From: an uncultured Eisenbergiella sp.
Lineage (GTDB): Bacteria > Bacillota > Clostridia > Lachnospirales > Lachnospiraceae
Direction: 5' to 3'
Assembly (NCBI GenBank): GCA_947630215.1
Contig: CANRGX010000007.1
Span: 1 to 64,000, forward strand
DNA: 64,000 bases
The notes below the pieces were generated by a model that did no database searches, had not been told where the DNA came from, and worked only from the letters and a program-made list of their open reading frames with translations. The position numbers and the translations under genes are program-made. Shown piece by piece: positions 35,242 to 55,826 of this stretch (position 1 is the stretch's first letter; every line of letters starts with the position of its first letter).

Positions 35242-36295
35242 TCATATTTTTCTGCTGCTCCCTGACAGTTCATCGGAACATTTCTTCTTCCTTGCGACCA
35301 CCAGCATTTGATCCGCGTATCCCGCCTCATCAATAACCGGCTGAATCCGATTGCTTATATTCATCAAACTGACATATAATTCCGATTCCTCCAAACCGCC
35401 AAGAATCATCGCATTGTTAATAAGATCCGTATACCCCTGCCCGAACTCCCATTTCCCGATGATTTCCAACTGTTCGCCCAAAAGGTATATAAGGGATTTT
35501 TCACTGAACACCTGCAGATGAATCGGCGGTACGATATGACGGTACACCGCGTTAGGGCAGGTCTGGTTTGCAAATGAGGCCAGCGAAGGGTGCCTGGGAA
35601 CTTCAAACACAAAAACGCTGCCGGCTTTCATTCTGTCACAGATATATTTAACGAACCGTACCGGTTCTTCAACGTGCTCAATCACATTGATACATGAAAT
35701 AATATCGCTTGTGCTTATCAGATCATTGATTTCTTTTTCTTCCTTTGTCAAATCAATATAATAATGATATACCCTCAAACCGTGCTCGGAAGCAAAACGC
35801 ACTTCATCCGGGTCCGATTCGATTCCCACCGCTTCAATCTTTGTGTTTTTCAGATATGTAAGGATTTCCCCGCCGCCGCATCCGATATCCAGCCATTGGC
35901 GGACAGGACACCCGTCTTGTTCGCATGCTTCCAGAACAAACCGTACCTTTGGCTCCGATATCAGCCTTACTCTCTGCATATAAACAGACTCGTCTATATA
36001 AAAACTGCCATTTGCGGTGTGATCCGATGCGTACAGTTTTTTAATGTCCGGGAGATTATGAAGAAAAACCGCGCCGCATGTTTTGCACAAATAATAATGA
36101 TATTTTCCCCAGACCGATACAAATAAATCTGAATACCCCCCCCCCGCATATACGGCACCGGGGCGCGTCCCCCTCCATCGGTTCCTTATAACATTCTTCC
36201 GACCGTTTCCTATCCTCGTCAATCATATTCCGAATGGTTCCCAAATTTCTGGAAATCTTTCTCATTTGCATCGGCTTTCCATATTTAATTAACAT
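35242..36295 (-). CDS. SAM-dependent methyltransferase, split by a G10 tract (likely phase-variable, off as written)
   Basis: Two adjoining frames form one protein. The first (from ATG 36295, overlapping neuA by 11 bases) encodes 50 residues ending CRIC just before ten Gs (minus strand), then leaves frame and stops at 36056. The second frame continues from the tract to 35242 with KYHYYLCKTCGAVF, a Rossmann methyltransferase motif I (WLDIGCGGGEIL), motif II acidic residue (GIESDPDEV) and CINVIEHVEEP. Read with nine Gs the product is 350 residues, and CRIC plus CKTC make the paired zinc-binding CxxC module that usually precedes this methyltransferase type. With ten Gs only a 79-residue fragment, or an internal start at 36222, is available. 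The likely target is a sugar of the surface glycan. Confidence 0.85.
36136..36145. repeat. Homopolymeric G10 tract (C10 on plus strand) inside a methyltransferase gene
   Basis: Ten consecutive C residues on the plus strand, the longest G/C homopolymer I found in the window. It lies at codon 51 of the methyltransferase. Loss of one G, or gain of two, joins the two parts of the gene. Confidence 0.95.
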
Positions 36296-36986
36296 ATTTT
36301 CCCTCTCCTTTATTTTCTAACAAGGCTTCCAGTACAAGTAAATCCCGCTGCTCATCTATATCCAGATCAAATTCCGAGGGCATTTCGTACCCGTATAAAT
36401 TGTCGTTCAAACTGGTTTCGGCGGTCAAATCCCGGATTCTGTTAATATAAATCGCACCGTTCACAACATAATAATCCGGGAAATCCTGCCTTCGTACCGT
36501 GCTTTGACAGGGAAGCATAGACGTCAGCTTCCCCTCCTGATCCATCCGCCTCAGTAACAGCGGATGGTTTCTTGCGGGAGAGATACTCAACAGAGACGGA
36601 TATTGATTGTCAATCATCAGCTCCAGCGCTTCATCAATATGCAACGCGGTTCTCAACGGCTGTGTCGGCTGCAGCAAAACCAGATAATCAAAGCATTCAC
36701 CCATTTTTTCAACAACGTGGAGCAACACATCAATCGTCCTGCTGGTATCCTGCGCAAGCTCCTTCGGACGGTTCAACACTTCGGCTCCTTCCCGCAATGC
36801 GACCTCCCCGATGGAACTGTCATCTGTGCTGACAATTATCTTATCAATATATTTTGAGGCTCTCGCCGCATCAAGGGTATAGGTTATCAGTTCCTTTCCC
36901 TTTACCTTCACAATATTTTTATGGGGAATCCCCCGGCTGCCGCCCCTTGCCGGAACAACTGCCAGGATCTTATAATTTTTATACAT
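36285..36986 (-). CDS. neuA: CMP-N-acylneuraminate cytidylyltransferase
   Basis: A 233-residue enzyme that couples CTP to a sialic (nonulosonic) acid. The N-terminal nucleotide-binding signature VVPARGGSRGIPHKN (about 10-24) is diagnostic; LLQPTQPLRTA (about 103) and the C-terminal EFDLDIDEQRD also match NeuA. AAAGGGAAGG lies upstream of the ATG. It follows neuC and neuB in the same direction, completing a sialic acid activation set. Confidence 0.93.
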   Translation of the reverse strand: MYKNYKILAVVPARGGSRGIPHKNIVKVKGKELITYTLDAARASKYIDKIIVSTDDSSIGEVALREGAEVLNRPKELAQDTSRTIDVLLHVVEKMGECFDYLVLLQPTQPLRTALHIDEALELMIDNQYPSLLSISPARNHPLLLRRMDQEGKLTSMLPCQSTVRRQDFPDYYVVNGAIYINRIRDLTAETSLNDNLYGYEMPSEFDLDIDEQRDLLVLEALLENKGEGKYVN

Positions 36987-37000
36987 TTTGAACCTTCCCT

Positions 37001-38146
37001 TTAGTCATTTGACCATTTGAGATCAATAAATTTCTTCTGAATATCGAACTTCCAGATTTCATCCTGATGAAGGATATCCAAAAACATCCGCGTACTATTT
37101 CCCATTCCGAAATGTTTCCCGGAAAAACGATATTGCTCCACCTTCCTTATCGCATTTTTAATATCCTCTTTATCTTCTTTTACATGCTGTATATTTTTTA
37201 TCGCATTCTCATCATATCTTCCGCTTTGCCGGCTCCCTATATCAATAGACGGGATGCCGTATATCTCGCTTTCCCTGATCCCTGCGCTTGAATTTCCGAT
37301 AATAAATTTTGCATTTTTCAATAAAGTAAGAAAATATTCAAACCGGATACTGGGAAATACACGAAAGCGTTTACTGTTGCTAAATTTTTTGTATTCTTCC
37401 AATATAATCTCGGAGCCCAAATCATTATTCGGATAAATGACAATATAGTTTTCACCCGATTCAAGGACCGCACCGACAACCCGGCTGATTCTATCGGATA
37501 TAGATTCGTATTCCGTGGTCACCGGATGGTACATCAAAATACCGTACTCCTCAAACGGAATGTCATAGCGCTTTTTACACATGGGAAAAGCAGGCAGATG
37601 AGGGGACAACATGATATCAATATCCGGAGAACCGATAACATATATTCTTGCTTCCTCCTCTCCCAACTGAATCAGCCTGTTTCTGGCCTCGTTGTTACAG
37701 ACCATATGTATATGGGCAAACTTGGATATGGCATGACGGATAGACTCATCAATGGTCCCTGAAAGCTCTCCGCCCTCGATATGAATCACCCGTACATTCT
37801 TTAACGCACCGACAATGGCGCCGGCAAGGGCCTCTATGCGGTCCCCGTGAACAACGATCATATCAATCCCTACTTTTTGTATATAACCGCTCAGTTCACA
37901 GATTACATCTCCCAGATTGTAACTCATATCATTTGTCAGCGCCAAGCCAAATGCCAGATATATATTTTCATAATGGTCCTTTTCGATTTCCCGAAACGTA
38001 TTACCAAACTGCGGAAGCAGATGCATACCGGATACAAAAACAAAAACTTCAAAATCCTCATCTTCATCCACAGCACGAAGCAGACTCTTTATTTTCCCGT
38101 AATCCGCACGGGTGCCGGTTATAAATAATACCTTTTTTCGCATCAT
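37001..38146 (-). CDS. neuC: UDP-N-acetylglucosamine 2-epimerase, hydrolysing (NeuC type)
   Basis: A 381-residue enzyme of the epimerase-2 (GT-B) fold that converts UDP-HexNAc to the free 2-epimer, such as ManNAc. Features: FITGTRADYGK at the start, VVHGDRIEALAGA (about 98), HIEGGELSGTIDE (about 121), HPVTTE and IGNSSAGIRE near the end. Because no aminotransferase or C4,6-dehydratase typical of legionaminic acid is present nearby, a Neu5Ac-type product is the simplest reading. It begins 7 bases after neuB ends. Confidence 0.92.
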   Translation of the reverse strand: MMRKKVLFITGTRADYGKIKSLLRAVDEDEDFEVFVFVSGMHLLPQFGNTFREIEKDHYENIYLAFGLALTNDMSYNLGDVICELSGYIQKVGIDMIVVHGDRIEALAGAIVGALKNVRVIHIEGGELSGTIDESIRHAISKFAHIHMVCNNEARNRLIQLGEEEARIYVIGSPDIDIMLSPHLPAFPMCKKRYDIPFEEYGILMYHPVTTEYESISDRISRVVGAVLESGENYIVIYPNNDLGSEIILEEYKKFSNSKRFRVFPSIRFEYFLTLLKNAKFIIGNSSAGIRESEIYGIPSIDIGSRQSGRYDENAIKNIQHVKEDKEDIKNAIRKVEQYRFSGKHFGMGNSTRMFLDILHQDEIWKFDIQKKFIDLKWSND

Positions 38147-38153
38147 ACCCCCG

Positions 38154-39200
38154 TTACTCTGCCTTTATCATAGAATATTGCAGCTGTATATCCCGTTCGA
38201 TATCACAGGCCGCGCGCCGCCCAAGTATACTTTCATATTCTTCCGCCAGGATCCCTCCGACACCCGGCCGCTTTACCCATAAATTCTCCCTTGTGAAAGG
38301 TTCCCCGGCTTTTACCGGTTCAATGGTAACAACAGATGCAAAGGCAAAGTCCTCCGTCACTTTTTCTTCTCGAATAGCTTTTTTCTCTCCGTTGAGCATA
38401 AGCGGGATCTCGTCTGCCGCAGCAACAAGCTCCCTCAATCTCTGCTCATCCATAGAACACACGATATCCGGGCCGGTTCGTTCCATTTTATCTGTAAAAT
38501 GCCGTTCCACCAGACATGCGCCCAGAGCCATTGCTGCAATGCAGGCATTGTTATTCAGCGTGTGATCGGAAAGCCCAATCGGAGTATCCGGAAATTCCCG
38601 CATCATTTCCTGCATGGCCCCGAGTCTGACCCATTCCGGCCTGGTCGGATATAAATTGGTCGTATGCATAAGCGCATATGCGACGCCATGCTTTTCCAAT
38701 ATGTTTACCGCCTTAGCAATACTTTTGATATCATTCATCCCTGTAGATACAATCATCGGTTTATGAAACTGCGCCACATATTCGACCAAAGGATAATTGT
38801 TTAGCTCCCCGGATCCAATTTTATATGCCTGTACGCCAAATCTCTCAAGACGTTCGGCCGCTGCTCTGGAAAACGGCGTGCTTAAAAAAAGCATCCCCAG
38901 AGATTCTGTGTATCGCTTCAGTTCTTTTTCATCCTCCTCCGATAAAGCGCACCTTTTCATAATCTCATAAATCGACACATCGGAATTCCCCGGAATAACG
39001 GACTTTGCCGCATGGCTCATTTCATCGTCTACAATATGTGTCTGATGCTTGATCAATTTCGCGCCCGCCCTATGTGCCGCATCCACCATCAGCTTGGCAA
39101 CCTCAAGGCTGCCCTCGTGATTGATTCCAATCTCCGGAATTACCAAAGGCGTGCATCCTATTCCGACTTCAACAGATCCGATAAAAAATTTTTTTTGCAC
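38154..39200 (-). CDS. neuB: N-acetylneuraminate synthase with SAF domain
   Basis: A 348-residue enzyme that condenses PEP with ManNAc (or a related hexosamine). The TIM barrel has [25 protein letters not shown] and STGMND; the antifreeze-like SAF domain occupies about residues 285-348 ([15 protein letters not shown]). The start is a GTG at 39200 with GGGAGG eight bases upstream, placing its first 43 bases inside the end of the upstream flippase gene. It is distinct from the SAF-less NeuB-like protein encoded near 51 kb. Confidence 0.94.
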
Positions 39201-44914: not shown

Positions 44915-45820
44915 CTACTCTCCAAATGAATACATTTCCAGCTGCTTTCTAAAGCCTGCATTGGTATGATATTCATTCAGATAATATTCCCACAGCCGTT
45001 CTATGCCGCCGGTAAGATCGGTAAATGTAAATTCTCCTATTTCTGCAAGCAGCCTTGTGTTATCACCCGTATATGGCAGCTTATCCCCCCCTTGGCGTAT
45101 GCGGACGGGAAATCCTCTCCCGCACCTTTGTCCTATCAAATCCGCTATCTTGGAAAGTCTGACGGCACTTCCCGTACACACATTATAATCATGATATTCA
45201 GGGGTATGTTCAATATACCAAATCATAAGCCGGCGCAAATCATCGATATACAGATAATCAAATTCCATATCCTGATAAATGGAAATCGGAAACCCTCTTA
45301 ATATTCGGCACATATTATTCGAGATAAACCGCCGGTTCCATTCCTCATATTTCCCATATACGCCAAAGAGACGCAGATTATATATATTTTCTGACTTTCT
45401 TGCACTCTGGTTCATAATATATTTGGAAAACCCATAGGCATCCTGCGGAATGTGTGTCCCAAAGTATCCTTCCGACATATTGGGGATATAGTGCTGCGTA
45501 TCAAATTCTGCCCCCGAGCCAAAATAGTACAGCTTTTTATAGAGCTGGCTGCACCGTGCAAGATTCCAATACATTCTCAAATTTCCGTACAAAATGTCAT
45601 ACGGATTTACATTCTCTTTATTGATTCTGGTATTATTTGTATTGGCACAGTGAATTACCGTATCAAAAGAATGTTCCTCCAAATACTGTGCGGTCTTTTC
45701 CGTGTCCAGCAGATCCAGTTCATAACGGGACGGCGCGTATACCTGATACTGCTCTTTCAGACCTTCCGCCAGATTCCTGCCAATGAATCCACCGCCGCCT
45801 GTTACTAAAATCTTTTGCAT
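44915..45820 (-). CDS. NAD-dependent epimerase/dehydratase or sugar-nucleotide reductase
   Basis: A 301-residue extended SDR. The Rossmann motif is TGGGGFIGRN (7-16); the catalytic residues are Ser in FGSGAEF and Tyr/Lys in YGFSK. It lacks the long insertions of 4,6-dehydratases. In context it could be the 4-keto reductase or epimerase that finishes a CDP-dideoxy sugar, or an unrelated epimerase. It contains a G7 run (45085-45091) that is in frame. The ATG at 45820 follows AAGGGG. Confidence 0.85.
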   Translation of the reverse strand: MQKILVTGGGGFIGRNLAEGLKEQYQVYAPSRYELDLLDTEKTAQYLEEHSFDTVIHCANTNNTRINKENVNPYDILYGNLRMYWNLARCSQLYKKLYYFGSGAEFDTQHYIPNMSEGYFGTHIPQDAYGFSKYIMNQSARKSENIYNLRLFGVYGKYEEWNRRFISNNMCRILRGFPISIYQDMEFDYLYIDDLRRLMIWYIEHTPEYHDYNVCTGSAVRLSKIADLIGQRCGRGFPVRIRQGGDKLPYTGDNTRLLAEIGEFTFTDLTGGIERLWEYYLNEYHTNAGFRKQLEMYSFGE

Positions 45821-45862
45821 TCTTTTCCCCTTAAAACCGTCCGCCATACTGTAAAATTCCCG

Positions 45863-46813
45863 TCAGATACCGGCCGAATCTTCCGTTTCAAAATTGATTT
45901 CTTCCGTTGTAACCACATCAGGCAATGTGGACACCCGGTTCAATACTTCTCCCACATATTCCCCCAGGATCCCCAAAATAAAAATCTGTACGGATCCCAG
46001 GAAAAACATGCCGATCAATATCGGCGCAGTTCCCGCTTGAAAGCTGTGCCACCAGATCAGTTTTAGGACCAGGTAAACCAGCCCGATCACAAAACTAAAA
46101 AAGGAAAGTCCCAATCCCACAACTGTCATAATACGAATAGGCGCGGTTGAAGTGGTAACGAGAGAATTGACGGCAAAACTCAGATACCTCCATACATTAT
46201 AAGAGGATTTCCCACTTTTCCTCTTTTTCTGCGCGTAGGGGATCAGCTTCACCTCACATCCCATGTCTGCAATAGCAAACCGTAATTGAAAATCATAGTC
46301 TGTTTTCATATACCTTTCCAGAATATCTCTGTCGCAAAGAGTAATGCCTGATATATGCTCATATTGCGGTACATTGGATAAATTTTTTATAATCCTATAA
46401 TAAAAATGACGAAGGGCATATTTTATTTTTCCTTCCTCAGAACTGGTCTTCTGTCCGCAAACAATCTTATACCCTTCTTCCCAGCATTTTAAAAAATCAG
46501 GGATCAGCTCCGGCGGATCCTGAAAATCACAGGCAATAATAACCAGGACGTCACCGGTTACATATCTTGAGGCATTTTTGAAGGATCTGCCGTCTGTTCC
46601 GTAATTCCTGCTGTTCATCAGGACCTTAATATGCCTATCCTGAGACGCAAGTTCACGTAAAATTTCCTTTGTGCCATCGGTAGAACAGTTATCGGTAAAT
46701 ATTATCTCATACTCGTATGGGAGCTTTTGCATAATATCAGTCAGGGTTTCTGCCATATCCCGAACATTTCCCACTTCATTATAGCAGGGAACGGATATAC
46801 TTACTTTTTTCAT
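45863..46813 (-). CDS. GtrB/DPM1-like glycosyltransferase with C-terminal membrane helices
   Basis: A 316-residue GT2 enzyme of the undecaprenyl-phosphate glycosyltransferase type: VPCYNEVGNV near the start, FTDNCSTDGT, and two membrane helices near residues 230-300 (IMTVVGLGLSFFSF; PILIGMFFLGSVQIFILGILGEYVGE). Such enzymes load one sugar on undecaprenyl phosphate for use by GT-C enzymes on the outer face, of which the island has three candidates. The ATG at 46813 has AGGAG upstream. Confidence 0.88.
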   Translation of the reverse strand: MKKVSISVPCYNEVGNVRDMAETLTDIMQKLPYEYEIIFTDNCSTDGTKEILRELASQDRHIKVLMNSRNYGTDGRSFKNASRYVTGDVLVIIACDFQDPPELIPDFLKCWEEGYKIVCGQKTSSEEGKIKYALRHFYYRIIKNLSNVPQYEHISGITLCDRDILERYMKTDYDFQLRFAIADMGCEVKLIPYAQKKRKSGKSSYNVWRYLSFAVNSLVTTSTAPIRIMTVVGLGLSFFSFVIGLVYLVLKLIWWHSFQAGTAPILIGMFFLGSVQIFILGILGEYVGEVLNRVSTLPDVVTTEEINFETEDSAGI

Positions 46814-46881
46814 AACCATCATCTCCTGTATAAGATACCAATAGAACTGTGTGCTCCATAGTCCCGGCGTATCATGGATCC

Positions 46882-48054
46882 TTATAGCTGCTCTCCTACG
46901 GCAACATATTCCTGATTCAACGCTCCCTCACCTTTACACCGGTCGCAGAAAGCAATATATCCATTTTCAAAAGCATTTTCTACATCAAATCTTAGCAGCT
47001 CCCGCAGCATCTCCTGCCTGCTTAACCGATTGAAAACATCAAGCTGTATAATTTCATCCTTAGCGCATTCCTTTACCGAAGCAATTCCCGCAATATATGC
47101 GTTCCCCAACTGTCCGCAGGGAAAGATCATTCCATCTATGAGGGATCTGCGATCTAATTTACAATCCTCATAACGCTCAATCAGCTGTTCTTTTGTTAAG
47201 CCCGAAGGCTGCAGGGGATTTCCCAAATCAATCCACCTAAGAGTTCTGCTGAACACATATTTTATTTTGCTGTTATCCAGTACTTTCCTCAATTTATCAT
47301 ATTGCGTATCAGACGTTAACGGATGCCCGCAGGAGGAATAATCACTGATAAAAAAGTTCACATGATAGCGCACCAGCGTTTTTTGCAGTTCCTCCGTTGG
47401 AATAACAGTGCCGTTTGTCACAAGAGTAAATTCCCCAATCTTCTGTCTGTAATTTTCCCCAATATACTCTACCAACTCCTTCAATCGGGGATATAAAAGC
47501 GGCTCTCCCCCTACAAGCCTGAACCGCGCGGTCCAGTCGATATTGCAAAAATACCTTTCAAGATCTGCTTTTAAGCTTTCCAGTAAACGGTTTTTACGGT
47601 TTAACGCATAAGGCATATACGCCGCGCATTTTTTGCATCTTAACGTACATAATGTGGTAATTGGCATTTCCATATAGGGAACGGCCAGCTTCTGTTGGTA
47701 TTCCCAGCCCCAATAAGAAATAAAATACTGGTAATATGAGAAATCCGTATTTTCTTGATAGCCCATGCGCTTTAATTCTTCACAGATCGCATTTCTTGTG
47801 ACAGGATAATGATTGGTTATTATGATTTTGTGTCTCCGATCACTTAATAATTGTTTGACACTTTTTACTTCGTACCCCGCGAAAGATTTTCCGCATATCT
47901 GCTCATTTCTGTCAACAATATAAGCGATTTTCATAATATCACCGATGGATGCAATCAACGACTCCGCAAATTCTGTGCACCCCCAAAGAACATAGGTTTC
48001 TTCTCTGTTAAAAATAGTCATCCAATCGGCTATTTGCCTTGTCTCCTGCCTCAT
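46882..48054 (-). CDS. Radical SAM protein with N-terminal nucleotide-sugar Rossmann-like domain
   Basis: A 390-residue protein. Residues 1-115 resemble the small Rossmann-like domain found in glycan cluster proteins (WGCTEFAESL, IVDRNEQ, GYEVKSVKQLL). The radical SAM core follows, with the 4Fe-4S motif C136-x3-C140-x2-C143 (CTLRCKKC), the GGEPLL motif and VTNGT. Late cysteines (FPCGQ and FCDRCKG) suggest auxiliary cluster ligands, as in SPASM proteins. The substrate is unknown; its place right after the ThDP enzyme gene suggests a step on the same sugar. Confidence 0.8.
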   Translation of the reverse strand: MRQETRQIADWMTIFNREETYVLWGCTEFAESLIASIGDIMKIAYIVDRNEQICGKSFAGYEVKSVKQLLSDRRHKIIITNHYPVTRNAICEELKRMGYQENTDFSYYQYFISYWGWEYQQKLAVPYMEMPITTLCTLRCKKCAAYMPYALNRKNRLLESLKADLERYFCNIDWTARFRLVGGEPLLYPRLKELVEYIGENYRQKIGEFTLVTNGTVIPTEELQKTLVRYHVNFFISDYSSCGHPLTSDTQYDKLRKVLDNSKIKYVFSRTLRWIDLGNPLQPSGLTKEQLIERYEDCKLDRRSLIDGMIFPCGQLGNAYIAGIASVKECAKDEIIQLDVFNRLSRQEMLRELLRFDVENAFENGYIAFCDRCKGEGALNQEYVAVGEQL

Positions 48055-48103: not shown

Positions 48104-49876
48104 TTATTCATTTTCATACGGCCACATTTTTTCCAGGGGGCCCGAAGTCATTTTCCCGTCTTCTCCTACGATTGCTTTTACTCTTGGGGAGACAGTTTCT
48201 TCCGGCAGTACCATCAATTCGCACAACATAGGTTCATCATCTGCCAGCAGCTTTGGCAGCAGCTTATCCAACTCCGTATTATTATGTATCTGATATGTCC
48301 GAAACCCATACGCTTCTGCGACTTTTGAAATCTCCGGCATAGTCAGCCCGCTGTTTTTGTCACTCGCCACATAATGTCCCGAAAAGTTATTGCGCTGCAT
48401 GGCCCGGATACTGGCATACCCGTCGTTATTCCAGATAAACATCTTGACGGGCAGTCCCAGCCGGTGCAGCGTCTCCAGTTCCTGAATATTTAATTGAAAG
48501 GCCCCGTCCCCGTTGATCAATACGGTTCTTCTTCTGTCATTCGCAATACAGGAACCAATCGCATAGGGCAGACCGAATCCCATGGAACCCAGGCCGGCCG
48601 CATTCTTCATCTTCTGTCCTTTTTTGAGTTGAAACGCCTGATATGTAATTTCACCCGCTCCTCCGGAGCTCTCCGGTACAATCACATCGTCCTCTCTCAA
48701 AAGCTCACACAGCTTTCCGATAAAGTAATAGGCGCTGACATAGCCGTTTACGTCCTTATGTTCTTTTGTAATAACAGGATATTTCTTTCTGATATTCCTG
48801 CAATATTCAATCCATTCCTTTCGTTCTGCCCGGATCCTGTCCGACCATACATCCGCAGCGTTTTCTTTCACCGCCTCCAACAGACCGTCCAGGAAATATC
48901 CCGCGTCGCATACGGCGTATGCCTCCTTTTCCATATCCATTCTGGCAATTTCGTTGGGATCAATATCGATAATAATTTTTTTTGCGCATTTTCCAAAGTT
49001 TCTGTCATTAAACGCCGTCACGCTCGTATCCAGGCGGCAGCCTATGGACAAAATAAAGTCGGCAGTCTGCAGGATAAGATTGGCTCCCCTGTCGCCCATA
49101 ATACCCGGATGCCCCACATATAAACCGTCCGTCTCAGCAAACATATCGATGGTCTTCCAGGTGGTTTCCACCGGCAAACCCAACTGTTCTACTAACTGAT
49201 AAAGCTTATCTTCCGCCCCGGATAATTTAATGCCGTTTCCGGCCAGAACAAGCGGTCTTTTACTTGTCTTTAACAGAAAAACCGTCCTGGCGATTGCTTC
49301 CCGGATATCCGGTTTCTCTGCCGCAGGATACTCAAAGCCCCGCAATAATGTCTCGTCCAGCAAAGCCGCCTGCACATCCAGCGGAATATCCAGCCAGACA
49401 GGCCCCGGCCTTCCGCTGGTAGCTTCGTAATATGCCCTTTCAAGGTGATAACGGATTTCCTCCGGGTTTAAAATCTGTACGGCATATTTTGTGATTCCCT
49501 TCACCATGGGAACGATCTGGACTTCCTGTGACCCGATCTGGCGCACTCCCTTATCGCCGACAAGATCGGCGCGTTTAGACTGCCCGGAAATAATGATCAT
49601 AGGGGTAGAATCAATCCATCCCGCCGTAACGCCGGTGATCGTATTCGTTGCACCGGGGCCGGACGTCACCAGAACCAGCCCGGGCGTATTGGTATGCTGA
49701 GCATAGGCCTCCGCGGCAATCGCAGCGCCCTGCTCATGTAAAAAGCAGACGTATTGGATTCCCGATTTTCCAATGGAATCATCCAGGTGCATCGCGCCTC
49801 CTCCCGGAAGCATAAACGCATGCCGGATCCCCTTCTCCTCCAAAAAACGAAATACGTAATCAGATAATTTTATCAT
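48104..49876 (-). CDS. Acetolactate synthase-like ThDP enzyme, possibly sugar-branching
   Basis: A 590-residue ThDP-dependent enzyme. The activating glutamate is in LHEQGAAIAAEAYA (about 48), the PYR domain ends near 170, and the PP domain holds the ThDP/Mg motif NGDGAFQLN...WNNDGY. It looks like the large subunit of acetolactate synthase, but there is no small subunit gene or other ilv gene here. YerE, a homologue in yersiniose synthesis, joins a two-carbon unit from pyruvate to a CDP-3,6-dideoxy-4-keto sugar; with rfbFGH just upstream, a similar C-C ligation on a CDP sugar is a plausible role (inference). Confidence 0.85.
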   Translation of the reverse strand: MIKLSDYVFRFLEEKGIRHAFMLPGGGAMHLDDSIGKSGIQYVCFLHEQGAAIAAEAYAQHTNTPGLVLVTSGPGATNTITGVTAGWIDSTPMIIISGQSKRADLVGDKGVRQIGSQEVQIVPMVKGITKYAVQILNPEEIRYHLERAYYEATSGRPGPVWLDIPLDVQAALLDETLLRGFEYPAAEKPDIREAIARTVFLLKTSKRPLVLAGNGIKLSGAEDKLYQLVEQLGLPVETTWKTIDMFAETDGLYVGHPGIMGDRGANLILQTADFILSIGCRLDTSVTAFNDRNFGKCAKKIIIDIDPNEIARMDMEKEAYAVCDAGYFLDGLLEAVKENAADVWSDRIRAERKEWIEYCRNIRKKYPVITKEHKDVNGYVSAYYFIGKLCELLREDDVIVPESSGGAGEITYQAFQLKKGQKMKNAAGLGSMGFGLPYAIGSCIANDRRRTVLINGDGAFQLNIQELETLHRLGLPVKMFIWNNDGYASIRAMQRNNFSGHYVASDKNSGLTMPEISKVAEAYGFRTYQIHNNTELDKLLPKLLADDEPMLCELMVLPEETVSPRVKAIVGEDGKMTSGPLEKMWPYENE

Positions 49877-49885
49877 GCTTTTCCT

Positions 49886-50944
49886 TCAATCCTGTTTTTC
49901 AAACATTTTATATTCCACATACTCTGCAATTACATGCCCTATAAATATGTGTGCCTCCTGAATCCTCGGTGTCACCAATGACGGTACTTGAATCATATAA
50001 TCTGCCACATGGTTCAGCTCCGGGGTCTCAAATCCTCCCATAAGCAAAACCGATACGATCCCGTTCTGTCTGGCGTAGCGCAGCGCTTCCAGTACATTTT
50101 TGCTTGTCCCGCTGGTGGAAAGTCCGATTAACATATCCCCCTCGCGCGCCTTTGCCTCTAATTGCCTTGCGAACACCCTTTCAAAACTATAGTCATTTCC
50201 GATTGCGGTCAGCGTGGAGGTGTTGACTGACAGAGCTTCCGCATTCAGTCCGGGACGTTCTCTGTAAAACCGACTGATAAATTCCGTTGCGATATGCTGC
50301 GCATCCGCGGCGCTTCCGCCATTGCCGCACAGATAAATACATCCGCCTTTTCTCAGAACCGAAACCATCCTCTCTCCGACCGCCATAACTTTGTCTGTCA
50401 ATTCCTGATCGGATGCAAGTGTTTTAAATATATTCGTGTGTTCCTCGATTTTCTGATAAAAAAAATGCTGCGTGCAGTTTTCGTTGTTATATCTCTCCAA
50501 TATGGAAATAATTTCCCAAATACATCCTTTTCCGCCATCATTATGCAGAATCATATCCGCAGCGTTTTTCGCCGCGTCGATAGCGTTGGCCGGACATATG
50601 CCAAGCCCCGCATAGGAAAGCGGCTCCACGTCATATTTTCCATCGCCGATATAACAGATTCTTTCTCTGCCGATGCCGGTGTTCTTTTCGATCCGCTGCA
50701 GAGTTTCTTTTTTTGATTTATTGCCGCGGTAAAAAGAATGCCAGGGAAACCTTTTTTCAAAATAATTCACAATGTCCGTGTCCTCGCCGGTAATGGCGAC
50801 GAGCTTATATCCCCTGCGATGCAGTTCAAAAATAGCATCTATATCTTTTAGATTAACCAGCTTTTGTTCTTTCCCGTCAGAATCAACGATGACGGAACCG
50901 TCCGTTATAACGCCATCAATATCCAATACGATTAATTCGATCAT
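49886..50944 (-). CDS. KdsC-like HAD phosphatase fused to GmhA-like SIS isomerase
   Basis: A 352-residue two-domain protein. Residues 1-150 are a KdsC-type HAD phosphatase (catalytic D8 and D10 in LDIDGVITDG, then AITGED and GDGKYDVEPL). Residues from about 160 form a SIS domain very like GmhA, sedoheptulose-7-phosphate isomerase (CGNGGSAADAQHIATEF; YSFERVFARQLEA; STSGTSKNVLEAL). The pair of activities, ketose-to-aldose phosphate isomerisation and removal of phosphate, fits either side of the NeuB-like synthase encoded 4 bases upstream. The exact sugar length cannot be set from sequence. Confidence 0.9.
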   Translation of the reverse strand: MIELIVLDIDGVITDGSVIVDSDGKEQKLVNLKDIDAIFELHRRGYKLVAITGEDTDIVNYFEKRFPWHSFYRGNKSKKETLQRIEKNTGIGRERICYIGDGKYDVEPLSYAGLGICPANAIDAAKNAADMILHNDGGKGCIWEIISILERYNNENCTQHFFYQKIEEHTNIFKTLASDQELTDKVMAVGERMVSVLRKGGCIYLCGNGGSAADAQHIATEFISRFYRERPGLNAEALSVNTSTLTAIGNDYSFERVFARQLEAKAREGDMLIGLSTSGTSKNVLEALRYARQNGIVSVLLMGGFETPELNHVADYMIQVPSLVTPRIQEAHIFIGHVIAEYVEYKMFEKQD

Positions 50945-50948
50945 AAAA

Positions 50949-51773
50949 TCAACCTCTGAGTTTTTTCTTTACTTCTTCTTCGGCGGCGGTCAGAACTTTT
51001 TCTCCCGTACCCATAATCTTTTCCGTCTTACGAATATCCCGAACCAATCCGCACAGCTCATGGGGCTCAATGGATGCTTTCTGATCGGAACCGTACATAT
51101 TCTTATCCAGTGTAATATGACGCTCGATGGAGGCCGCGCCTGCCGCAACCGCACAGATACTTACAAATATCCCTTTTTCATGTCCGCTGTATCCGACCTG
51201 GCAATGATATTTGTCTGCGAGTACCCGTATCAGCTTTAGATTTGCATCTTCCTCAGGCATAGGATAGGTACTGTTACAGTGCATCAGTTCAAAAGGACAG
51301 TTATGTTTCCTGAATATTTCCACCGCATGGTCAATCTCGGCATATGTACTCATGCCGGTGGCAATAAAGGTATACTTCCCCTCTCCGGCAATCTCCTCTA
51401 AAAGTTCATCGTTAACCAACATAGCGGAAGCTACCTTGTTAAATTTACAGTCGTACTGACGCAAAAATCTCTGGGAGTCCACATCCCATGCGGAGGCAAA
51501 CCATGCGATTCCTTTTTCCCTGCAATACCGGTTTATTTCATCGTACTCCTCCTTGCCAAACTCCAGCCCCTCCTTCTGGGCACGCTGAGTATTTCCCCAG
51601 GGGCTTTGCCTCGGGCTGTCCAGATACTCTTTGGAATACACCTTGTCCACAGTGCGCTTCTGAAATTTTACGGCATCACATCCTGCCGCTGCTGCGGCGT
51701 CGATCAGCTTTTTTGCAAGAGCCAAATCCCCGTTGTGGTTAATTCCGATTTCTGCAATAATCGTCGTTTTCAC
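50949..51773 (-). CDS. NeuB-like PEP-condensing synthase without SAF domain
   Basis: A 274-residue protein with only the TIM-barrel half of NeuB: IAEIGINHNGD at the start, ATGMSTYAEID, HCNSTYPMPEED and GYSGHEKG. The SAF lid domain that binds ManNAc in true NeuB is absent, and no second neuA or neuC accompanies it. It therefore probably condenses PEP with a different aldose or aldose phosphate. The start overlaps the rfbH stop as ATGA and the next gene begins 4 bases after its stop, tying it to the CDP-sugar and HAD/SIS genes. Confidence 0.88.
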   Translation of the reverse strand: MKTTIIAEIGINHNGDLALAKKLIDAAAAAGCDAVKFQKRTVDKVYSKEYLDSPRQSPWGNTQRAQKEGLEFGKEEYDEINRYCREKGIAWFASAWDVDSQRFLRQYDCKFNKVASAMLVNDELLEEIAGEGKYTFIATGMSTYAEIDHAVEIFRKHNCPFELMHCNSTYPMPEEDANLKLIRVLADKYHCQVGYSGHEKGIFVSICAVAAGAASIERHITLDKNMYGSDQKASIEPHELCGLVRDIRKTEKIMGTGEKVLTAAEEEVKKKLRG

Positions 51774-53125
51774 AATGCTTCTCCTTTAGTGCTGTTTACA
51801 ATCATTTTCACCATATAATCGATCCTGTCGTCTGTCATTCCCGGATATACCCCTACCCAAAAGCTGTCCCTCATGATCCGATCCGTATTTTCCAGAGAAC
51901 CGGCGACACGATACCCTTGTCCGCTCTTTCTCATTTCATCAAAGCAGGGGTGCTTGAGCAAATTGCCGGCAAAAAGCATTCTCGTCTGAATCCCTTTCGC
52001 CTCAATATTTCTCACAACACGGTTCCGATCCGTTCCTTCCTTACAGGTAATAAGAAATCCGAACCAGCTAGGCTCGGCGTTCTCACAGGCCTCCGGAAGA
52101 ATAAAAGCATTTTCCGTTCCCTTCAATCCCTCTTTCAAACGGTTAAAATTGTGCTTCCTGCGCTCCGTGAACCACGGTATTTTATCCACCTGCGCGCAGC
52201 CGACCGCGGCCTGCAGATCGGTGGCCTTCAGATTATAGCCAAAATGAGAATAAACATATTTATGGTCATATCCTGCCGGCAGTTCTCCATACTGCCCGTC
52301 AAACCGGTGTCCGCACAAATTATCCGTTCCGGACGGACAGATACAGTCACGTCCCCAATCCCGGAAGGAACGAAGTATCTTATGCAGTAACGGATTATCC
52401 GTATATACCGCTCCGCCCTCCCCTGTTGTCATATGATGCGGAGGATAAAAGCTCGACGTCCCGATATCGCCAATCGTTCCCGTATACTTTTGTGTACCGT
52501 CTATTGTATACTTCGATCCCAGCGCATCACAGTTATCTTCAATCAGCCACAATCCGTTTTCCTCACAAAACCGGCGCACATAAGCCAGATCGAACGGATT
52601 CCCCAAGGTATGCGCGAGCATGACCGCTTTTGTTTTCTCCGATAAGGCTTCCTTCAGCCTTGAGATGTCCACATTGTATTGCGGGATCGTCACATCCACG
52701 AACACCGGAACTGCCCCATACTGCAATATGGGGGTTACGGTAGTAGGAAACCCGGCGGCCACCGTGATCACTTCGTCGCCTCGTTTGATCCTCCTTTCTC
52801 CAAGCAGCGGAGAGGTAAGCGCCATAAAAGCAAGCAAATTGGCCGACGAGCCGGAATTAACCAGAGAGCAGAACCGAACGCACAGATAATCGGAAAGTTT
52901 TTTTTCTAATAAATCCGTAAATCTGCCGGAGGTAAGCCAAAAATCCAATAGAGCATCTGTCAGATTGAGCATTTCCTGTTCATCGTAAACTCTGGAAGCG
53001 TAAGGTATTCTATCGCCTTCCTTGAACGCTTTGAGCTGCTCCGGTTTCTTAAAATCGTTATAATAGTTTAGAATCAGTTCCTTGATCTGTTCTCTTGCTT
53101 GTGTCTCACTGTTCCATTTTCTCAT
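51770..53125 (-). CDS. rfbH: CDP-6-deoxy-L-threo-D-glycero-4-hexulose-3-dehydrase (E1)
   Basis: A 451-residue PMP- and iron-sulfur-dependent dehydrase of the DegT fold that starts C3 deoxygenation of CDP-4-keto-6-deoxyglucose. The PLP lysine of aminotransferases is replaced by histidine in FYPPHHMTTGEGG, the hallmark of E1. The [2Fe-2S] ligands are present: Cys in EDNCDALG and C-x-C-x7-C in DCICPSGTDNLC. All this marks a true E1 rather than an aminotransferase. Its reductase partner E3 (RfbI/AscD/DdhD type) is not seen in the window. Confidence 0.95.
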   Translation of the reverse strand: MRKWNSETQAREQIKELILNYYNDFKKPEQLKAFKEGDRIPYASRVYDEQEMLNLTDALLDFWLTSGRFTDLLEKKLSDYLCVRFCSLVNSGSSANLLAFMALTSPLLGERRIKRGDEVITVAAGFPTTVTPILQYGAVPVFVDVTIPQYNVDISRLKEALSEKTKAVMLAHTLGNPFDLAYVRRFCEENGLWLIEDNCDALGSKYTIDGTQKYTGTIGDIGTSSFYPPHHMTTGEGGAVYTDNPLLHKILRSFRDWGRDCICPSGTDNLCGHRFDGQYGELPAGYDHKYVYSHFGYNLKATDLQAAVGCAQVDKIPWFTERRKHNFNRLKEGLKGTENAFILPEACENAEPSWFGFLITCKEGTDRNRVVRNIEAKGIQTRMLFAGNLLKHPCFDEMRKSGQGYRVAGSLENTDRIMRDSFWVGVYPGMTDDRIDYMVKMIVNSTKGEAL

Positions 53126-53164
53126 TTTTCTATCCCTTGTATTTGATAGCTTCTTAAAGTCCCT

Positions 53165-54235
53165 TCATCCGGTTTCATCCGTTTTGCGTATATACTCTCC
53201 TATTTCCCTCTCCATCTCCCGGGCAATATCCCCTTTTTCCAGATACACACGGGTGAACCGGCAAGTCTGCTCGACGGCTTTAGCAATATGCCAGCGCGGG
53301 ATCCAGCCGATTTTCTGTTTGATTTTTGAGCAGTCGAGCTTCAGAAAATTGGCCTCATGCGGCCCGCCTGCGTCTTGGGCCTCCCAGCTCTGTTCCTTCC
53401 CCCACTCTTTGCAGAATAAGGCGACCAGGTCGCCTGTTGTCACACAGTCCTCCTCGTTTGGCCCGACATTGTAGCAGCCGGCATACGATATATCTTCATA
53501 CTGCGCTCTGGCAATCATCAAGTAGGCAAAAAGCGGCTCCAGTACATGCTGATACGGTCTGATAGAGGAAGGATTTCTCACAATAATCGGCCGTCCCTGC
53601 AGAGCGGCCCTGACACAATCGGGAATAATCCTGTCCTGCGCAAAGTCTCCGCCGCCAATCACATTCCCGGCGCGCGCTGTAGAAACCGCAGTATTGCGCT
53701 GTGTCAGAAATGAGTCCCTATAACAATGCGTGATCAGTTCCGAGCAGGATTTGCTGTTGGAATATGGATCATATCCGTCCAGCGGTTCATATTCCCGATA
53801 CCCCCAGGCCCATTCCCGGTTCAGATATACCTTATCGGTTGTCACATTCAGAAACGATCTGACGCCCCCGTTGTTTCGGATACATTCACACAGATTGACC
53901 GTTCCCATGACGTTTGTCTCGAAGGTGCCGGCAGGATCCTGATAAGACCGTCGGACAATCGGCTGTGCGGCCAGATGAAATACAATTTCCGGCCGTGCTT
54001 CCTCAAAAGCCCTCCGCAGTCTGTCACGATCCCGCACATCGCCAAACACGCTGTGCAGCTTACCGGCCGTTCCGCTCAGATCATATAAATTGGGGCCTTC
54101 AGGCGGCGCCAGCGCGTATCCGGTCACGTCAGCGCCGGCATCCGTCAGCAGCTTGCACAGCCATGACCCTTTAAAGCCGGTGTGCCCGGTAACGAACACT
54201 TTTTTGCCCCGGTAAAACTCCAACGTTTCCTTCAT
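53165..54235 (-). CDS. rfbG: CDP-glucose 4,6-dehydratase
   Basis: A 356-residue extended SDR. The Rossmann motif is VTGHTGFKGSWL, typical of this enzyme, and the catalytic Tyr and Lys sit in YDPYSNSKSCSE. It converts CDP-glucose to CDP-4-keto-6-deoxyglucose. The ATG at 54235 overlaps the rfbF stop as ATGA; an in-frame extension to 54316 lies within rfbF and is not needed. Confidence 0.95.
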   Translation of the reverse strand: MKETLEFYRGKKVFVTGHTGFKGSWLCKLLTDAGADVTGYALAPPEGPNLYDLSGTAGKLHSVFGDVRDRDRLRRAFEEARPEIVFHLAAQPIVRRSYQDPAGTFETNVMGTVNLCECIRNNGGVRSFLNVTTDKVYLNREWAWGYREYEPLDGYDPYSNSKSCSELITHCYRDSFLTQRNTAVSTARAGNVIGGGDFAQDRIIPDCVRAALQGRPIIVRNPSSIRPYQHVLEPLFAYLMIARAQYEDISYAGCYNVGPNEEDCVTTGDLVALFCKEWGKEQSWEAQDAGGPHEANFLKLDCSKIKQKIGWIPRWHIAKAVEQTCRFTRVYLEKGDIAREMEREIGEYIRKTDETG

Positions 54236-55008
54236 GTATCCCATACCTTCCACGGCGCTTCTCCGCTTTCCCACAAATCTTCCAATCTTTCCTTTTCCCG
54301 CAGCGTATCCATACATTGCCAGAAACCAGTATGCGTATAAGCCATAAGCTGGCCGTCTCGGATCATTTGATTGATCGGTTCCTTCTCAAATACAGTGTCA
54401 TCGCCTTTTAAGTACTGAAATATCGTCGGTTCACACACCATGAAGCCAACATTGATCACACTGCCGTCGGATTTATCCTTCTCCCGGAACCCCTCTATCC
54501 GATTATCCTTATCTATTTCCAGTACGCCGAACCGCTGTCCCACATTCATTGCCGTCACAGTGCAGCACCTTCCGTGCGACCGGTGAAATCTTACCAGTTT
54601 TTCTATGTTAATATCAGAAACACCGTCTCCGTAAGTCAGCAAAAACGGTTCCCCTCCGACATATTTTTCTATCCGTTTAATTCTTCCGCCTGTCATAGTA
54701 TCCAGTCCGGTATCTATTACAGACACCCGCCACGATTCAGAATGACTGGAATGTACTTCCATACGGTTTGCCTTCAAATCAAACGTTACATCAGAATTGT
54801 GGAGATAATAATTGGCAAACCACTCCTTAATCACCTGCTGCCTATACCCTGCGCATATAATAAAATCATTAAATCCGTAATACCCGTACAGCTTCATAAT
54901 GTGCCACAGGATCGGTTTCCCGCCTATTTCGATCATGGGCTTGGGCTTAAACATACTTTCTTCGCTGATTCTTGTCCCATAGCCTCCCGCGAGGATTACT
55001 ACCTTCAT
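54232..55008 (-). CDS. rfbF: Glucose-1-phosphate cytidylyltransferase
   Basis: A 258-residue nucleotidyltransferase that makes CDP-glucose. Signature: VVILAGGYGTRISEES (3-18), KPMIEIGGKPILWHIM, and YGDGVSDINIEKL for the metal site. The start at 55008 overlaps the preceding glycosyltransferase gene as ATGA and has GGAGA upstream. First step of the CDP-dideoxyhexose branch. Confidence 0.96.
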   Translation of the reverse strand: MKVVILAGGYGTRISEESMFKPKPMIEIGGKPILWHIMKLYGYYGFNDFIICAGYRQQVIKEWFANYYLHNSDVTFDLKANRMEVHSSHSESWRVSVIDTGLDTMTGGRIKRIEKYVGGEPFLLTYGDGVSDINIEKLVRFHRSHGRCCTVTAMNVGQRFGVLEIDKDNRIEGFREKDKSDGSVINVGFMVCEPTIFQYLKGDDTVFEKEPINQMIRDGQLMAYTHTGFWQCMDTLREKERLEDLWESGEAPWKVWDT

Positions 55009-55826
55009 TTTGATTTCTCCCGTTCTCCATCTGTAAACGCGGCGTATCTGTGCTTCAGATATATTTTTTCCAGCCATAACCGCCCGCTGTTCGGCACGAT
55101 CCTAGCGCATACCTCTTTGCCGTATGCCAGCAGAAGCCCCGCAAAACGTCCCGGTCCCGCTTTTGGCTGCAGACCATGCTTTCGCCTCACCGCTTCCGTT
55201 TCCCGATAGCGCAGCACGAACCGGGTAGAGGAAACACCCTGCAGGCAAAAGACGGCTATCAGCCTGTCCACATACAGAAACCGGGCCCCTTTTTCGTACA
55301 GCGTCAATAGATTGTCATAATCTGCGGCAATCCGATACTGCAAATCGAACGGAGTCTGCTTCAGTAATTCCCGCCGGATCAGACACGCCTGATGACAAAA
55401 CGGCATTTTCCGATTGATTGACGGAAAATCCGCCTTCCATACTGCCTGTCCCGCCTTTGCGCTTACGATGGCATCCCCGTACAGCACATCGGCCTTTTGC
55501 ACATCCTTCTTTCCGAAAATATCGGCCAATACATGGGGAGAGACAAACAAATCCCCGCTGTTCATAAAGAGGATCCATTCTCCCCGGCAGATGGCGACAG
55601 CCTGATTCATCGCATCGTATATGCCTCCATCCGGCGTATCCACATACCGAATCCTTCTGTCGGGATACTGTCTTATGACGGAATCGACGATTTCCGGTGT
55701 GGCATCCTTGGATCTGCCTCCTTTAATCACATACTCTAAGTCCCCATATTGCTGATCCAAAACGGAACACATGGTTTCCTCAATATGTGCCGCATCATTT
55801 TTCACCACAGTGATGACAGATACCAT
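55005..55826 (-). CDS. Glycosyltransferase family 2 (WcaA-like)
   Basis: A 273-residue GT-A enzyme with VSVITVVKNDAAHIEETM at the start, GGRSKDAT in place of the usual GGSTDGT, and a metal-binding region near FMNSGDLF. The family transfers single sugars during repeat-unit assembly. Overlaps rfbF by four bases. Confidence 0.88.
   Translation of the reverse strand: MVSVITVVKNDAAHIEETMCSVLDQQYGDLEYVIKGGRSKDATPEIVDSVIRQYPDRRIRYVDTPDGGIYDAMNQAVAICRGEWILFMNSGDLFVSPHVLADIFGKKDVQKADVLYGDAIVSAKAGQAVWKADFPSINRKMPFCHQACLIRRELLKQTPFDLQYRIAADYDNLLTLYEKGARFLYVDRLIAVFCLQGVSSTRFVLRYRETEAVRRKHGLQPKAGPGRFAGLLLAYGKEVCARIVPNSGRLWLEKIYLKHRYAAFTDGEREKSK

Follow-up and report, generated by a model that had tools for sequence, protein, structure and literature searches.

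The window studied here, i.e., the whole analyzed stretch of 64,000 nucleotides from an uncultured Eisenbergiella sp. (Lachnospiraceae), encodes a protein that joins a phosphatase of KdsC type to an isomerase of GmhA type. Which product does such a fusion serve? A sequence-only reading had placed it in a Kdo-type pathway that possibly starts from sedoheptulose 7-phosphate. Judging from the encoded enzyme families and their arrangement, we consider it rather likely that the fusion would serve to build that part of a branched higher sugar which comes from the donor, via NeuB and a ThDP-dependent carboligation.

The fusion protein and its gene neighborhood

The features of the window that are relevant to this question are the following.

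36285 to 39200, reverse strand: NeuA-NeuC-NeuB(SAF) trio, kept apart from the fusion module
44915 to 45847, reverse strand: NAD-dependent epimerase/dehydratase-like SDR (Pfam Epimerase), candidate post-carboligation reductase
45863 to 46822, reverse strand: PgfS/ArnC-like family 2 glycosyltransferase (NF047588, 164 bits, below cut-off)
46882 to 48054, reverse strand: radical SAM protein, directly downstream of the ThDP gene
48104 to 49876, reverse strand: predicted YerE-like ThDP-dependent carboligase, 590 aa, directly downstream of the fusion
49886 to 50944, reverse strand: HAD-SIS fusion of KdsC-type phosphatase and GmhA-type isomerase, 352 aa, ATG start
50949 to 51773, reverse strand: SAF-less NeuB-type PEP-condensing synthase, 274 aa, GTG start
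51770 to 53125, reverse strand: RfbH, CDP-4-dehydro-6-deoxyglucose 3-dehydrase (NF011936, 695 bits, over the curated cut-off)
53165 to 54316, reverse strand: RfbG, CDP-glucose 4,6-dehydratase (TIGR02622, 435 bits, over cut-off)
54232 to 55077, reverse strand: RfbF, glucose-1-phosphate cytidylyltransferase (TIGR02623, 393 bits, over cut-off)

The fusion is encoded by one uninterrupted reading frame. Residues 2-154 match the KdsC/YrbI family (TIGR01670, about 92.5 bits, below the curated cut-off of 106.95) and reach 82 bits with the KDN-9-P phosphatase model, also below its cut-off (180). Residues from about 160 to 351 form a GmhA-type SIS domain (NF010546, 173 bits; Pfam SIS_2, 88 bits), for which the NCBIfam gmhA equivalog TIGR00441 yields 167 bits given a cut-off of 209. 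Since both halves stay under the curated equivalog or subfamily cut-offs, we name them KdsC-like and GmhA-like only. The AlphaFold2 model of the fusion has a mean pLDDT of 93.2. Foldseek pairs its SIS half with 2xbl, i.e., B. pseudomallei GmhA in complex with its product (TM 0.96 on target, rmsd 1.2 Å, 44% identity). The HAD half pairs with the KdsC structure 4um7, and 3e81/4hgo-type phosphatases are among its close solved relatives. Reading frame, Pfam/NCBIfam matches and structure matches thus bear out the fusion of a KdsC-like and a GmhA-like domain that the sequence-only reading had claimed.

That reading had also described both domains as catalytically complete, which an alignment of 30 fusions supports. 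The HAD residues D8, D10, K78, D101 and D105 are invariant. The zinc/catalytic residues of GmhA are H61, E65, Q175 and H183 (PMC5387315); they correspond to H217, E221, Q329 and H337 of the fusion, which are invariant or at least 90% conserved. The Glu and His residues of the SIS site, whose loss would have spoken against the sequence-only reading, are thus in place, and both active sites look complete.

The synthase gene ends 4 bases before the start of the fusion and encodes, as had been noted, a NeuB without SAF domain: the TIM barrel PF03102 is matched at 252.6 bits and no C-terminal SAF domain follows. With 264 bits for NeuB_NnaB (curated cut-off 400) and 6ncs as its best solved relative, we treat it as a putative NeuB-family synthase that is not classed as a sialic acid synthase. 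Directly upstream of it lie rfbH, rfbG and rfbF (51770-55077).

For the ThDP enzyme, the best solved relative is JanthE (8rph, 407 bits; next 265 bits), and the profile of its own 23-member family scores 515 bits (next 380). The ThDP-binding GDG at 456-458 and the activating Glu48 in HEQ are invariant in the 23 sequences. We rejected an identity as acetolactate synthase, given that JanthE and then 5ahk, which we take to be PpYerE, outscore every acetolactate synthase. JanthE is a YerE-like carboligase that accepts ketones and, as is the case for most YerE-like enzymes, its native substrates are not known (PMC12188165). YerE itself transfers an acyl unit derived from a 2-keto acid to CDP-3,6-dideoxy-4-keto-glucose, and ErwE and MMAR_2332 favor longer hydroxylated 2-keto acids (PMC12247030). 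We infer that the enzyme of the window is a YerE-like carboligase that would use an ulosonic acid as acyl donor. A search of the plasmid collection with this enzyme gave no match at 1e-80.

Downstream of the ThDP gene, homologues of the SDR occur in 11/24 ThDP loci and in 0/23 other loci. The glycosyltransferase may act in the transfer to a lipid carrier. Weak homologues of the radical SAM protein, whose N-terminal region matches no Pfam model, are found in 8/24 ThDP loci and 0/23 others.

No CMP-ulosonate cytidylyltransferase is encoded beside the cassette: the sole NeuA of the window (36285-36986) is part of the trio, 13 kb from the module in the same polysaccharide region. The SAF-containing NeuB of this trio is 30% identical to the SAF-less one, and the trio looks like a separate, conventional route of sialic acid type.

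Spread of the fusion and the alternation of ThDP enzyme and NeuA

A profile search of genome contigs (profile built from an alignment of four fusion members) retrieved full-length homologues of the fusion with 33-80% identity from more than 30 genomes, which rules out an assembly artefact or a single-genome fusion. The search for further HAD-SIS fusions and their neighbors, which the sequence-only reading had suggested, thereby places the fusion in more than 30 species of several phyla, i.e., well beyond the source assembly. Carriers belong to Lachnospiraceae, Oscillospiraceae, Peptococcaceae, Bacilli, Chloroflexota and Myxococcota and include one Syntrophorhabdus. The plasmid collection adds one Azospirillum fusion in a NeuA-type locus, which is one of four NeuB-matching plasmid records.

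A SAF-less NeuB adjoins the fusion in every fusion locus where the contig extends far enough. Because one PEP-condensing NeuB accompanies each viewable fusion locus, it is very likely that both halves serve one shared pathway, as had been deduced from the fusion itself. In one genome of the same genus, SAF-less NeuB was not found, and the locus is therefore strain-variable. Two loci labeled Bacilli/Mycoplasma (L067:6697-11056, L068:1638-5997) combine fusion and NeuB, and neither NeuA nor a ThDP gene was found nearby.

To compare what accompanies this NeuB, we used loci retrieved via HAD sequence patterns only, i.e., independently of ThDP and NeuA genes (L033 duplicates L045). The 47 distinct SAF-less-NeuB loci comprise 23 with ThDP enzyme and without NeuA, 18 with NeuA and without ThDP enzyme, one with both and five with neither, several of the latter on short contigs. 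That is, a NeuA-type gene is absent beside 23/24 ThDP-type loci; in the sole exception (L047) it is located 8 kb away, beside a different NeuB. The Fisher value for the exclusion is 9e-8, where independence is overstated given that the rows are phylogenetically related. On the NeuB tree, the ThDP/NeuA state switches at least 4 times, and an independent-pairs sign test on the tree has too few pairs for significance. A second, NeuB-anchored sample within the family gave 8 ThDP, 3 NeuA and 0 loci with both. Unfused versions of the ThDP class are present in Lentisphaerota, Omnitrophota, Desulfobacter and Peptococcaceae.

Given this exclusion in related loci, the ulosonic acid of the window is probably a carboligation donor and not CMP-activated. 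The sequence-only reading, which ended with a Kdo-type pathway, is supported for the module of isomerase, synthase and phosphatase, to which the ThDP enzyme would add a step in place of NeuA. The CMP route is found in another branch of this family of fusions. Enzyme families, catalytic residues, conserved clustering and the replacement of NeuA can be read from the sequences themselves.

At the genome level, a cytidylyltransferase match of at least 40 bits is missing in 10/23 ThDP-type versus 0/9 NeuA-type genomes (p 0.03), where many of the counted genomes are incomplete MAGs; matches of 21-33 bits look IspD-like. The genome G104 (96% complete, 3 contigs) has no PF02348 cytidylyltransferase anywhere and carries three YerE-like ThDP enzymes (L035, L247, L248), each near a NeuB-family synthase. 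Several ThDP-type genomes also carry NeuA elsewhere. For the source genome, genome-wide absence of NeuA failed as a test, since it has two PF02348 genes, one of them within the window.

The loci L059-L076, L180, L181 and L196 combine NeuB, HAD-SIS fusion, NeuA, SDR, Gfo/Idh and TIM-barrel genes in Bacillota, Chloroflexota, Myxococcota and Azospirillum. These NeuA-type fusion loci apparently represent an undescribed CMP-ulosonate pathway.

Donor synthases, ligases and acceptor genes

YerE-like enzymes are encoded in 120/397 genomes of the family Lachnospiraceae, i.e., about 30% (E<=1e-130), and the eight top scores are exactly the eight genomes with a SAF-less-NeuB cassette. Within the family, the ThDP enzyme occurs in 40/55 genomes with rfbG and in 1/65 without, and rfbG is present in 8/8 distinct cassette genomes tested versus 55/120 in the family.

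This bears on the reading that the locus is a plain Kdo- or KDN-type CMP-ulosonate pathway with the ThDP gene as an unrelated neighbor, e.g., a divergent acetolactate synthase. The NeuB, KdsC and SIS families are indeed those of the Kdo, KDN and sialic acid routes. We nevertheless give this reading very little credence: members of Bacillota, Lentisphaerota, Omnitrophota and Thermodesulfobacteriota have the ThDP gene next to the cassette, the gene co-occurs with rfbG at the genome level, and its product is far nearer to JanthE than to acetolactate synthases.

Other YerE-like loci mostly have a 2-keto-acid synthase of their own, either an aldolase or a NeuB (36/40); for the remaining 4/40, none was found nearby. 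The synthases of the first 20 loci are 14 HMGL-like aldolases, 3 NeuB-cupin fusions and 3 SAF-type NeuBs, two of the latter loci also having NeuC. In a second batch, scored with the synthase sequences of the first, a synthase is present in 16/20 loci compared to 0/15 control rfbG loci without ThDP enzyme (p 2e-6). The ThDP tree sorts by synthase type with 7 changes in all (quick tree).

Some ThDP loci carry an additional SDR, a Gfo/Idh oxidoreductase and a TIM-barrel protein. NeuA-type loci typically have the same genes, and a role in modifying the ulosonic acid or a precursor of it is therefore probable. Loci with SDR and Gfo form a single clade on the ThDP tree (99/97), while the NeuB tree requires five changes. 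The window and L042 illustrate this: their NeuBs are 92-93% identical, their ThDP enzymes fall into different clades, and one locus is without, the other with the modifying genes.

These observations are also relevant for a reading with two separate sugars. Here, the ThDP enzyme would join pyruvate to the RfbFGH product, resulting in a yersiniose-type sugar, and the ulosonic acid would be CMP-activated independently by the NeuA at 36285-36986. Such a NeuA is at hand in the same polysaccharide region 13 kb off, and type B loci pair the same fusion and NeuB with NeuA. Still, we think this division improbable: the NeuA of the window belongs to a trio with NeuC and another NeuB, ThDP enzyme and NeuA are mutually exclusive in the compared loci, 10/23 ThDP-type genomes are without a clear CMP-synthetase, and the ThDP type follows the type of keto-acid synthase, which the use of pyruvate would not predict.

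Considering the whole family, we lean toward the view that NeuB-made ulosonic acids serve as ThDP acyl donors in several phyla, giving C14-C15 branched sugars, and that Lachnospiraceae have this as one version of a modular set, in which an exchangeable synthase for the 2-keto acid is combined with RfbFGH and a YerE-like ligase and which about 30% of their genomes possess.

Several further loci deserve mention. The YerE-like loci L229-L248 and L265-L284 mostly encode an HMGL-like aldolase of about 535 aa, often with a HAD_2 phosphatase, and putatively constitute a large unexplored set of branched-sugar loci. NeuB-cupin fusions of about 500 aa directly adjoin YerE-like ThDP genes at L230:6486-7982, L233:6422-7948 and L244:6435-7949. 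At L239:8001-11949, NeuC and a SAF-type NeuB lie beside a YerE-like ThDP enzyme and rfbFGH, and NeuA was not found nearby; possibly, sialic acid itself is the ThDP donor there. On a Methylomagnum plasmid (L198:3841-9453), NeuB and HAD genes have an aminotransferase and a split, transketolase-like ThDP enzyme as neighbors; here, another ThDP superfamily may follow the same donor logic.

Proposed route, its starting sugar and known systems

For the preferred reading, i.e., an ulosonic acid as carboligation donor, we propose the following route, in which every reaction as well as the aldose and the product are deduced from the enzyme families. The SIS domain would convert a ketose phosphate, most likely sedoheptulose 7-phosphate, into an aldose phosphate. 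The SAF-less NeuB would condense this and PEP, yielding the phosphate of a 3-deoxy-2-ulosonic acid (C10 from a heptose, C9 from a hexose). After dephosphorylation by the HAD domain, the YerE-like ThDP enzyme would decarboxylate the free ulosonic acid and add the acyl carbanion to C4 of CDP-4-keto-3,6-dideoxyglucose, the acceptor presumably made by RfbF, RfbG and RfbH. Ketone reduction may follow, for which the SDR at 44915-45847 is a candidate, and glycosyltransferases would place the branched sugar (C15 if heptose, C14 if hexose) into a surface polysaccharide.

Some points speak against this route. Reported donors of characterized YerE-like enzymes reach up to C8, compared to the C9 or C10 ulosonic acid considered here. 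Such an acid also cyclizes strongly. Finally, the NeuA at 36285-36986 could in principle activate it.

Sedoheptulose 7-phosphate, which the sequence-only reading had brought up, is a plausible starting point. No second GmhA-like gene of the source genome exceeds the cut-off. Nine cassettes are without SIS domain (Lentisphaerota, Omnitrophota, Methylomirabilota, Thermodesulfobacteriota, Pseudomonadota, Elusimicrobiota), and 8/9 of their genomes carry a GmhA-like gene elsewhere, the exception being a partial genome of 1.5 Mb. These host groups are mostly LPS-bearing. The pattern fits a fused SIS domain that supplies the same heptose 7-phosphate where the host is without LPS heptose synthesis; as LPS-bearing hosts commonly carry gmhA anyway, this amounts to an argument from consistency.

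A variant of the preferred reading retains the ulosonic donor and lets the SIS domain isomerize fructose 6-P, a pentulose 5-P or a modified sugar, resulting in a C8/C9 acid and a C13/C14 product. The chain length is not fixed by solved relatives, the HAD half is near the KDN-9-P phosphatase, and for SIS-less ThDP loci mannose 6-P is conceivable as substrate, in analogy to the KDN-9-P route. Against it, the SIS half resembles true GmhA most closely and keeps all zinc/catalytic residues, and the GmhA-like genes of the SIS-less hosts are as expected if the host GmhA supplies the same heptose phosphate. We hold this variant to be a tentative, rather doubtful option; as it is nested within the preferred reading, the confidences of the two overlap.

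By current understanding, ulosonic acids are activated with CMP and then transferred. If the preferred reading is true, decarboxylation and grafting onto a nucleotide sugar is a second fate and thus a new branch point of surface glycans, which would account for NeuB genes in genomes without a CMP-sialate-type synthetase. YerE-like enzymes, for which there is demand as tertiary-alcohol biocatalysts, would gain candidate physiological donors. Furthermore, the preferred reading predicts large branched sugars to be common on gut Lachnospiraceae, from which, to our knowledge, none has been described, and it points to a widespread, uncharacterized class of very large branched bacterial sugars. For annotation, a 'sialic acid synthase' gene in Lachnospiraceae need not mean sialic acid, such that NeuB annotations should be read with caution.

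The kind of ligase is already known, while the class of NeuB-supplied ulosonic donors is undescribed as far as the literature covered here shows. An in-silico survey by Krug from 2024, which the 2025 review cites, is said to cover more than 200 YerE-like clusters and may already mention NeuB. The terms NeuB, sialic, ulosonic and Kdo are absent from the 2025 review of YerE-like enzymes (PMC12247030), and for aurantose, tetradecose and deculosonic acids, a literature search found no further source than this review.

With YerE, ErwE, MMAR_2332, MygE and JanthE, the system shares the sequence family of the ligase, the linkage to genes for CDP-4-keto-3,6-dideoxyglucose and the logic of a 2-keto-acid donor; it differs in the donor, which here would be a 3-deoxy-2-ulosonic acid made by NeuB. 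The products caryophyllose, erwiniose and yersiniose follow the same skeleton logic, i.e., a 3,6-dideoxyhexose that is branched at C4 via an acyl-derived unit, whereas the branch proposed here is longer (presumably C8 or C9). The KDN-9-phosphate pathway of Bacteroides thetaiotaomicron type (NeuB-like synthase, HAD phosphatase, CMP-KDN synthetase) has the succession of PEP synthase and KdsC-like phosphatase in common with the window, where in contrast the phosphatase carries a fused GmhA isomerase and the ThDP enzyme takes the place of the cytidylyltransferase. GmhA, the sedoheptulose 7-phosphate isomerase, agrees with the SIS half in fold, zinc/catalytic residues and 44% identity to 2xbl; here, however, the domain is fused to a phosphatase, without heptose kinase/HldE context, in a host that is probably without LPS. 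Finally, the KdsD-KdsA-KdsC pathway to Kdo has the same order of reactions, i.e., isomerase, PEP condensation and phosphatase, but the window uses the GmhA instead of the KdsD subfamily and NeuB instead of the KdsA family, and it has no KdsB step.
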